Virus record (IMG/VR): IMGVR_UViG_3300020477_000106
Location: 1-27,820 of that record
From: a virus
Length of the DNA stretch: 27,820 nt
Reading direction: 5' to 3' (one strand)
Shown: in pieces, positions 2,928 through 8,853 of the stretch
How positions within the stretch are numbered: the first letter of the stretch is position 1
Layout of the letters: each line of letters begins with the position of its first letter
Translations under genes and position numbers: made by a program
The notes under the pieces: generated by a model
Databases searched by the model: none
What the model was told of the DNA's origin: nothing
Seen by the model: the letters and a program-made list of their open reading frames with translations, nothing else

Positions 2928-3857
2928 TTACGAATCGTCCTCAGCTAATTTGCTAAAGTATGATATAGAATCACCGTCACCAGATTCGCTTTCTACTTTA
3001 TCTTTTGTCACCGTCCAACCACTTTTAGTAGCTGTACCGTTTACCTTTGGTGCGGTCTCATTGACTTTTGGTAAGTCAATATTGGCAACGGACTCGGTGT
3101 TTCTTTGTCCTGTAAGTGTCTTATTCAGTTTCTCTTTGAGTTCATCATAAGATTTAAAATTACTAGGATCAATGAAAGGTTTAAGAGCGTATTGAGATTT
3201 CCATACTTTGTCAATCTCAGCATCGGTAGATTTAATCTTACCAACTGGCTCAAATTCTGATTTGTCGTAGTTCCAAAAACCATCAACTTTACGAATCTTT
3301 AATTTAAAGTTAGCGCCTTCCCAAAAATCAAATGGGTTACACGCCTTCTCATCTTCAAACTGCGGATTCATCTTTTCAGTTATCTTATCAAATATCTTTT
3401 TACCAAATTTGTATAAGAAAACTTTACCTTCGTGTTCTGGATGTTTTGGATCAGAAACAACTAAAATATTTGAATAATATTGTAGTTTTCTTTTTCTCTT
3501 ACGAGCAATATCCTTATCAGACTCTATACCAGTATTCCACAATCTAGTGTTTTCTTCCGATACAGGATCTTTTTTGTTTAAAGTCGTCAAAGAATTTTCA
3601 ATATACCATTGACCACCTGGTCCTTGAAATGCGTGATTCCAAACTCTTACCCAAGGCATATCTTCGCCTTCTATTGCTGGTAAAAATCTCAATACTGCAT
3701 AACCATTTCCAGATTTATCTAATTCTGGTTTCCAGAATCTGTCATCTTGGTAATTACTTTTCTTTGATGGATCTTTATCTATAGATTTCTCTAACTTTTT
3801 TGTCAGAGCGTCAAAATTAGATTTTGACCTTTTTAATTGTTCAAGTGCTGTACTCAT
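2928..3857 (-). CDS. 32: Single-stranded DNA-binding protein gp32
   Basis: A 309-residue protein with the gp32 architecture: a basic N-terminal self-association segment (LEQLKRSKSNFDALTKKL), an OB-fold core with RFWKPELDKSGNGYAVLRFLP, YYSNILVVSDP, GKVFLYKFGKKIFDKI and FWEGANFKLKIRKVDGFWNYDKSEF, and a short acidic C-terminal tail ending LAEDDS that in T4 contacts partner proteins such as gp59, gp61 and polymerase. It coats single-stranded DNA in replication, recombination and repair. The zinc ligands of T4 gp32 are absent: the region that in T4 has CxxC reads KDPVSEENTRLWNTG, a replacement I recall in marine T4-like phages. Strong SD (AGGAGG) before the ATG at 3857. Upstream lie a late octamer (3935) and a perfect sigma-70 promoter (4077), consistent with early plus late expression. 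Confidence 0.95.
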   Translation of the reverse strand: MSTALEQLKRSKSNFDALTKKLEKSIDKDPSKKSNYQDDRFWKPELDKSGNGYAVLRFLPAIEGEDMPWVRVWNHAFQGPGGQWYIENSLTTLNKKDPVSEENTRLWNTGIESDKDIARKRKRKLQYYSNILVVSDPKHPEHEGKVFLYKFGKKIFDKITEKMNPQFEDEKACNPFDFWEGANFKLKIRKVDGFWNYDKSEFEPVGKIKSTDAEIDKVWKSQYALKPFIDPSNFKSYDELKEKLNKTLTGQRNTESVANIDLPKVNETAPKVNGTATKSGWTVTKDKVESESGDGDSISYFSKLAEDDS

Positions 3858-6343: not shown

Positions 6344-6975
6344 TATCTTGGTCTTAATGCGTTCCAACTGATAGGAAAATGAAATAAACTATAACTATCT
6401 ATAAACTCCGCAACCTCTCTTGTTTCTTTTTGTACATCTGGTTTACATCTTAAATCACATACTCTAGCAAACGCATATAAAGTACCTGACCATATCCATT
6501 CTGTCATCATTGATTGTGGTAATACTGCTCTTGCTTGTTCAGGTGCTACACCTTCACTTAACAATTGATTATATAAAATTTTAAGACCATCCATCATTTC
6601 ACTATAAGTTACTTCAGCAAGTTCACTTAACTTTATTGTTCCAGACGAACCTTGTTTTGAATTAACAGGTTTACCTCTCCATTCATCTATCTTATATAGT
6701 TCGGGCTCATATGATACATAACGCCTACTTACTTCGTTCCAACTTAATCCTACTTGATGTTTAACTAATTGTCTTGCAACAAATACTGGTGCTTTAATTC
6801 TAAATGATATTGAGGCGTGAGCAAAAGGTGACCAATGACCGTGTTTAGCAAGATAACCTATAAGTTTTGTATCTTTATCTTCAAATTCATTTTTAACTTT
6901 AGCATATGATACTCTAGCAGCATTTACTACTGATAAATCACTACCCATTTTATCTATCATTTCAACTTTTATCAT
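6343..6975 (-). CDS. thyX: Flavin-dependent thymidylate synthase ThyX
   Basis: A 210-residue protein of the ThyX fold. N-terminal AARVSYAK, then YLAKHGHWSPFAHASISFRIKAPVFVARQLVKHQ and the signature region SWNEVSRRYV (residues ~78-88). The C-terminal EWIWSGTLYAFARVCDLRC ... VQKETREVAEF carries the dUMP/FAD-binding part. ThyX makes dTMP from dUMP with methylene-tetrahydrofolate, FAD and NADPH, supplying thymidine for an AT-rich phage genome. The usual RHRxxSxNxxSxR reads KHQVGLSWNEVSRR: the two basic residues of RHR are changed to K and Q, and one residue is inserted. ATG overlaps the gp33-like stop as ATGA; the gene is coupled to gp59 downstream. Confidence 0.93.
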   Translation of the reverse strand: MIKVEMIDKMGSDLSVVNAARVSYAKVKNEFEDKDTKLIGYLAKHGHWSPFAHASISFRIKAPVFVARQLVKHQVGLSWNEVSRRYVSYEPELYKIDEWRGKPVNSKQGSSGTIKLSELAEVTYSEMMDGLKILYNQLLSEGVAPEQARAVLPQSMMTEWIWSGTLYAFARVCDLRCKPDVQKETREVAEFIDSYSLFHFPISWNALRPR

Positions 6976-7184
6976 AACGGTAATGTGCTTGATTTAGGTA
7001 GAAAATTTAAATTTTCTGCCTCTCCTTTAATTTTTTCTTTTAATGATTTATTGATTAGGTTACCAACGGTGCCTGTGTCTATATTATTTTTTTCACAATA
7101 ATAAACTACAGCGTCAATATATGAGATTCTTTTTTCTTTGACAATTTCTTCAATTTTTAAAGCAAACTTCTTACTAGTCAACAT
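6972..7184 (-). CDS. 33: gp33-like late transcription coactivator
   Basis: ATG at 7184 with an AAGGA Shine-Dalgarno just downstream of the tmRNA gene gives 70 residues: MLTSKKFALKIEEIVKEKRI, SYIDAVVYYCEKNNID, GNLINKSLKEKIKGEAENLNFLPK. The YIDAVVYYCEKN and EKIKxEAxxLNFLPK blocks fit the short gp33 proteins of marine T4-like phages as I remember them. gp33 bridges host RNA polymerase and the gp45 sliding clamp to activate late promoters together with sigma gp55. Presence of TATAAATA-type promoters in the same window agrees with this. The T4 C-terminal clamp-binding hydrophobic/acidic tail is not obvious here (end: SSTLPL). Position next to ThyX, gp59 and gp32 parallels T4. A longer TTG-start reading would run back into the tmRNA and is not credible. 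Confidence 0.65.
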   Translation of the reverse strand: MLTSKKFALKIEEIVKEKRISYIDAVVYYCEKNNIDTGTVGNLINKSLKEKIKGEAENLNFLPKSSTLPL

Positions 7185-7198
7185 AATATCCTTTTTAT

Positions 7199-7432
7199 GT
7201 CCCGTTCCTGTTGCCAAGTCGGGACCACACTCCGTCTGCCTAAGCAGCCATACGATAACTTGCGTTGTCGTTTAAAAATGGCCTTTAAAGTAGCACCCTA
7301 CTATTTTACTCCAGTTAGTTTTAGTAGTAGTCGAATCTAACTCACCCCCTTACAGCACATCTAAATGTGTTCTAAATTGGTGGAGGTGCTGGGAATTGCA
7401 CCCAGGTCCTCACTAGTTATTATCTAACCTTC
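7199..7432 (-). ncRNA. ssrA: Circularly permuted (two-piece) tmRNA
   Basis: Transcribed leftward. The acceptor piece comes first (7432-7378): GGTTAG, then a T arm CTGGG-TGCAATT-CCCAG, then CACCTCC and an encoded ACCA end. A 28-nt spacer (7377-7350) with a CACAT-TTAG-ATGTG hairpin follows. The coding piece starts at 7349 with GGGGGTGA and the universal AGATTCGAC. The two pieces pair: GGGGGTG with CACCTCC gives a seven-pair acceptor stem including the G3-U70 wobble that specifies alanine; CUAACU (7318-7313) pairs with GGUUAG (7429-7424) as helix P2. The tag frame reads NDNASYRMAA then TAG (7240-7242), and the stop lies in the loop of a CTGC-TTAG-GCAG hairpin. The RNA ends with a hairpin GTCCCG...CGGGAC (7225-7199). 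Function: rescue of stalled ribosomes and tagging for proteolysis. Probably cut from an operon transcript, since no promoter is obvious. Exact ends are estimates. Confidence 0.88.
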
Positions 7433-7447
7433 AACATAAAATTCATT

Positions 7448-7705
7448 TTAAAATTTTCTAACTATATGTTTTCTTAATGCTCTTACTAACTCCTCAATCT
7501 TATCTACAATTGCAATAAGACTTGGGTCGGTAATATAGTTTGATTTTTCTTTTAACCTATCGTACTCTTTAATTGAGATTTGCACCATTGGAGAATAATC
7601 TCTATCGTGTTCGTTCTCAAATGTCGCTTGTTGAGCTTCATCTTGTTCGTCTAGGTCTTTAGGAAATAATTCTAGTTGTTCATTACCTAAAATTTCATCA
7701 CTCAT
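7448..7705 (-). CDS. Conserved hypothetical, 85 aa
   Basis: ATG at 7705 follows the upstream stop at once and has a strong SD (AAGGAGG) inside the preceding gene's last codons. The protein has an acidic N-terminal half (DLDEQDEAQQATFENEHDRD) and a C-terminal helix VDKIEELVRALRKHIVRKF that is amphipathic and basic at the end, with SPMVQISIKEYDRLKEKS between. It could be a small DNA- or protein-binding adaptor, but no family is recognised. It directly precedes the tmRNA acceptor piece, whose precursor probably shares its transcript. Confidence 0.7.
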   Translation of the reverse strand: MSDEILGNEQLELFPKDLDEQDEAQQATFENEHDRDYSPMVQISIKEYDRLKEKSNYITDPSLIAIVDKIEELVRALRKHIVRKF

Positions 7706-8825: not shown

Positions 8826-8853
8826 ATTATATCACAAATCACTAATATGTCAA
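8826..8853 (-). promoter_or_regulatory. Sigma-70 promoter (TTGACA-16-TATAAT) for the exonuclease operon
   Basis: Minus strand -35 TTGACA at 8848-8853 and -10 TATAAT at 8826-8831, 16-nt spacer, with a leader of about 23 nt to the ATG at 8796. It lies in the 61-nt gap between two genes, as a real promoter should. Confidence 0.85.

Follow-up and report, generated by a model that had tools for sequence, protein, structure and literature searches.

A permuted, alpha-type two-piece tmRNA gene upstream of gp33 in a T4-like phage

Closely similar phage genes for two-piece transfer-messenger RNA (tmRNA) are already described. In phage Melnitz, the two-piece tmRNA lies directly upstream of a transcription coactivator gene, a permuted tmRNA was found in 17 of 47 related contigs, and 53 two-piece tmRNAs were counted in phages (PMC9004378), while the study that introduces the Rfam family RF04321 gives 79 unique bacteriophage tmRNA sequences (PMC11915505). 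Both Melnitz and Pelagibacter phage Mosig have SsrA annotated at this same place. Here we describe such an ssrA gene on the minus strand of the virus record IMGVR_UViG_3300020477_000106, all 27.8 kb of which (27,820 nucleotides, nt) make up the window of this analysis. A sequence-only reading had placed a permuted two-piece tmRNA here and considered it notable for a T4-like phage; the gene is indeed present, although its kind was already known from Mosig and Melnitz.

Two covariance models matched the minus strand at 7441–7196 above their gathering cut-offs: RF04321 (tmRNA_permuted) with 92.4 bits (E 6.5e-17, cut-off 47) over 7441–7240, and RF01849 (alpha_tmRNA) with 69.1 bits (E 3.8e-17, cut-off 50), the match reaching 7196. 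The single gene that ARAGORN reported in the whole window was a permuted tmRNA in the same region, with the tag DNASYRMAA. Every element that the two families model in the tRNA-like domain is matched; compared with the models, the mRNA-like domain is compact and several model positions are absent. Together with the compensating changes in relatives described below, these results bear out the sequence-only reading, which had itself proposed the alpha_tmRNA and ARAGORN searches as checks, and confirm that 7441–7196 is a permuted alpha-type two-piece tmRNA gene in a T4-like phage. A chance match or an ordinary tRNA is ruled out by the two covariance models and the two-sided pair changes. The limits first proposed, 7199–7432, fall on the gene, but the RNA extends beyond them to the ends of the model matches. 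The parts of the gene, with their sources, are as follows.

7378–7441, minus strand: 3′ (acceptor) piece, first in the gene, with P2 strands, T arm and CCA end (5′ limit set by the RF04321 match; sequence)
7437–7441, minus strand: P2c strand TTTTA, with its partner TAAAA at 7308–7304, minus strand (covariation)
7424–7428, minus strand: P2b, strand GTTAG of the 3′ piece (covariation)
7389–7405, minus strand: T arm CTGGG-TGCAATT-CCCAG, 5/5 stem pairs (script and relatives)
7382–7388, minus strand: 3′ strand of the acceptor stem, CACCTCC (sequence and script)
7381, minus strand: A73, followed by the encoded CCA at 7380–7378, minus strand (sequence and script)
7350–7377, minus strand: intervening spacer of exactly 28 nt, expected to be excised, with a small CACAT/ATGTG hairpin inside (sequence and script)
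7196–7349, minus strand: 5′ piece (mRNA-like domain), about 154 nt (RF01849 match to 7196)
7343–7349, minus strand: 5′ strand of the acceptor stem, GGGGGTG, with G3 opposite U70 (script)
7314–7318, minus strand: P2b, strand CTAAC of the 5′ piece (covariation)
7240–7269, minus strand: tag frame, with resume codon GAC at 7269–7267, peptide DNASYRMAA and stop TAG at 7242–7240 (ARAGORN and alignment)
7236–7247, minus strand: hairpin CTGC(TTAG)GCAG with the stop codon in its loop (sequence)
7225–7220 and 7204–7199, minus strand: terminal hairpin of the 5′ piece, GTCCCG/CGGGAC, with GGCAACAG in the loop (relatives)

The arrangement that had been read from the letters, i.e., an acceptor piece ending in ACCA, a 28-nt spacer and then the tmRNA 5′ end, is exact on the minus strand, where the 5′ piece begins at 7349 with GGGGGTGAGTTAGATTCGAC. 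The acceptor stem forms seven of seven pairs, including the G-U at 3–70 that had been noted, and the P2 helix, T arm, stop-in-loop hairpin and final hairpin were all located on the same strand. The G55 of the T loop, considered as an oddity in place of U55, was rejected as such, TGC or GGC being usual there in alpha-type relatives.

The pairing is conserved among relatives. In a set of 14 distinct related phage sequences, with 500 shuffles and slid registers as controls, P2b, P2c and the T stem form without exception, and two-sided changes occur in 4/5, 3/5 and 3/5 of their pairs, respectively; this level of covariation was reached by none of the shuffles and by no slid register. The acceptor stem is invariant within this close set. 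Across 21 phage loci, found via gp33 or taken from named phages, pair 5–68 is seen as GC, CG, AT and TA and pair 6–67 as TA, CG and GC, and these acceptor and T-stem counts lean towards pairing because the script required at least six of seven acceptor pairs and at least four of five T-stem pairs. The G3–U70 pair, partly fixed by the search pattern, is present in every phage sequence examined. In the terminal hairpin, the stem differs among relatives yet stays complementary, and the loop is conserved. Homologous phages, the further check that the first reading had named, thus keep the T and P2 pairs via compensating changes and have an intact acceptor stem. Taken as comparison of sequences, the evidence for the structure of the window tmRNA is strong.

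The location of the gene is shared as well. Scanning viral contigs by pattern yielded at least 119 stretches, and a search for gp33, the late-promoter transcription coactivator gene, gave 80 contigs, 50 of which were searched whole with RF04321. The model scored above its cut-off in 28 of these 50, and in each of the 28 the tmRNA precedes gp33 on a shared strand, at a distance of 57 to 3,912 bases. Relatives typed with cmscan are mostly alpha-type; in two loci (L131 and L137), a beta-type permuted tmRNA takes the position that alpha-type ones hold ahead of gp33, pointing to exchange or repeated gain there.

Among the named phages, Mosig EXVC030M (MT647606) has gp33 and thyX immediately after its annotated SsrA, which is the order of the window. 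Mosig and HTVC008M (KC465899) carry, like the window, a permuted alpha-type ssrA in an exonuclease–tmRNA–gp33 stretch (RF04321 scores of 93.6 and 90.6 bits, respectively), while they differ from it in the tag (GEDNFALAA and ANFNEYALAA vs DNASYRMAA) and in the spacer (44 and 49 nt vs 28 nt); the Mosig tmRNA is about 63% identical to that of the window. The HTVC008M gene (L002:2922-3233, corresponding to HTVC008M 145103-145414) is unannotated in the GenBank record. Methylophilales phage Melnitz EXVC044M also has an alpha-type two-piece tmRNA, annotated as SsrA, upstream of its late-transcription coactivator, but with a 142-nt spacer and the tag ANDNYVPVDYALAA, and with a glutamine riboswitch immediately following the tmRNA, whereas no such riboswitch was found in the window. 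In the Melnitz sequence (L324), the riboswitch (3628–3676) lies behind the alpha_tmRNA match (3203–3620) and not inside it, between that match and gp33. It may therefore serve the downstream genes rather than the tmRNA, and a correction of the literature on its control of the tmRNA may follow.

SAR11 bacteria are the likely host of the window phage because its gp32 resembles those of Mosig (66.9% identity) and HTVC008M (63.6%). The chromosomal ssrA of SAR11 (Pelagibacteraceae) has the same architecture and acceptor stem as the window gene but differs from it in its short spacer. Under one and the same model, two SAR11 ssrA genes reached 125.8 and 134.8 bits and the window gene less. In a FastTree tree built from these short sequences, with 25 host sequences sampled by DNA pattern, the window gene joins its sister L123 (support 1.0) within all-phage clades, and the sampled hosts form their own separate group. 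The window tmRNA is 87.7% identical to that of L123, at most 78.9% identical to those of other phages and at most 58.5% identical to those of the sampled SAR11 hosts. The matches listed by blastn against 297 SAR11-order genomes were confined to the 3′ piece, over about 45–58 bases at 79–84% identity, with no longer copy among them. We therefore regard the gene as an established phage gene; its recent capture from SAR11 is unsupported.

It is hardly credible that the gene is a functionless passenger in the phage, be it a host ssrA of recent capture or what is left of an attachment site, even if integrating elements often use ssrA. The compensatory changes in relatives already largely refute this explanation, and the completeness of the gene, its place in an all-phage clade and the wide linkage to gp33 also speak against it; in its favour one may also cite the suggestion of prophage gene exchange as a possible origin of the Melnitz tmRNA (PMC9004378).

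A separate observation concerns the bacterial side of the sampling, where the pattern scan of bacterial genomes gave, among the matches listed, almost exclusively SAR11 ssrA genes. A metagenome genome labelled “Rickettsiales” (record G052) has three permuted tmRNA matches above the cut-off, and the one in L215 encodes the same long tag as the viral contig L047; a phage contig may therefore have been binned with G052.

The tag frame of the window is readable and follows the habits of its relatives. DNASYRMAA aligns codon for codon, with zero gaps, to the SAR11-type tag ANESYALAA. Work on how tmRNA sets its reading frame has described a UA at −5/−4 before the resume codon; of 82 distinct phage tag segments, 74 have it, the window with its GAC included, and 81 encode an xAA ending. 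Such a conserved readable tag favours real trans-translation over a decoy, i.e., a phage RNA that would occupy SmpB, alanyl-tRNA synthetase (AlaRS) or ribosomes and so block trans-translation by the host. For that purpose, neither the frame of the tag nor its resume signal, stop codon and xAA end would need to be conserved, which makes the decoy quite improbable, although it has a reported precedent in the tag-less tmRNA of phage DS6A, as cited in PMC11915505.

The tags of the host are almost invariant, with ANESYALAA or ANESYAIAA in 115 of 117 SAR11 ssrA genes of the pattern-scan set, and they resume at GCT, whereas the window resumes at GAC, a codon found among the 82 phage segments only here and in L123. 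Perhaps the tag of these two phages was changed under selection from the SAR11 tag, by Ala to Asp at the resume codon and Ala-Leu to Arg-Met near the end; ribosomes would then be rescued, but the proteins released would be handled differently than by the host RNA, e.g., degraded more slowly. We consider such re-tagging unlikely, since the Ala-Ala end is retained, tag interiors vary widely among phages, and MAA also ends the otherwise SAR11-like tags of L067 and L128.

Most probably, in our opinion, the window holds a working phage-borne alpha-type permuted ssrA, which would make a two-piece tmRNA used with the SmpB of the host. Transcription would start at a strong sigma70-like promoter at about 8826, and host tRNA-maturation nucleases would remove the 28-nt spacer, leaving an acceptor RNA and a coding RNA that the acceptor stem and P2 would keep together. 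The CCA end would be charged by host AlaRS via G3–U70, and host SmpB would bring the charged RNA to ribosomes stalled on broken mRNA. Translation would restart at GAC, and the appended DNASYRMAA would be read as a degradation signal. For the phage, the payoff would be ribosomes kept free during infection and amino acids returned. The sequence-only reading had supposed, in addition, that the phage RNA may replace or outcompete the host ssrA.

Several results weigh against this proposal of a working two-piece tmRNA. The window RNA folds only moderately better than its shuffles (z −1.99), and cofolding of the two pieces did not recover P2; thermodynamic folding by itself would have missed this tmRNA, minimum-energy folding and cofolding being uninformative for P2. 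In P2a, a register slid by 3 scores about equally, the ambiguity arising because the partner strand repeats CTACTACT. Recognition of the tag by the host protease is uncertain because, unlike the SAR11 tag, it opens with Asp and has Arg-Met ahead of its Ala-Ala end.

The surroundings of the gene are those of a T4-like phage, the window encoding a baseplate hub, tail tube, DNA end protector, head closure, gp32, ThyX, gp33 and an exonuclease. The features next to the tmRNA are given below.

6972–7184, minus strand: gp33-like late-promoter transcription coactivator, 70 amino acids, directly downstream of the tmRNA (PHROG 254, E 3.2e-23)
7448–7705, minus strand: open reading frame of 85 amino acids that ends just upstream of the 3′ piece, without a match in the PHROG search
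8826–8853, minus strand: sigma70-like promoter TTGACA-16-TATAAT with TG, 12/12 matches, ahead of the exonuclease (consensus match only)

About 14 nt separate the end of the terminal hairpin (7199) from the gp33 start codon (7184). A candidate transcript from the promoter at about 8826 would probably comprise the exonuclease, two open reading frames, the tmRNA, gp33 and thyX, and since this 12/12 promoter precedes the exonuclease, a longer transcript is probably what the tmRNA is released from. Near the tmRNA, exact T4-type late promoters (TATAAATA) are absent, and the two in the window are below chance expectation.

Two further observations were made in other phages. In L126 (1226–1312) and the matching stretch of L127, a 108-nt segment between the tmRNA pieces contains an open reading frame for a hydrophobic peptide of 28 amino acids (MDGHHIFLTFVIFGSAAIFIWVMEAVLL) after AGGAGAG; the L127 version has conservative changes and ATA where L126 has ATG. 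This may be a small gene that lies within the spacer of a tmRNA. In Streptomyces phage pSt2308 (L003:1452-1532), an unannotated 81-nt match to the tmRNA family RF00023 (61 bits) lies among clustered tRNA genes and is too short to hold a tag; it is a candidate tag-less tmRNA like that of DS6A.

The presented analysis opens no new kind of system. It adds the placement of the window gene in a phage clade apart from the sampled SAR11 ssrA genes, and an Asp-start tag that aligns without gaps to the SAR11 tag; the difference between host and phage tags is testable. Such tmRNA genes form an established lineage among phages and keep a fixed position ahead of gp33. The idea that phages bring their own ribosome rescue into the most abundant marine bacteria has seen little testing, and the window contributes a compact and well-supported gene to it.
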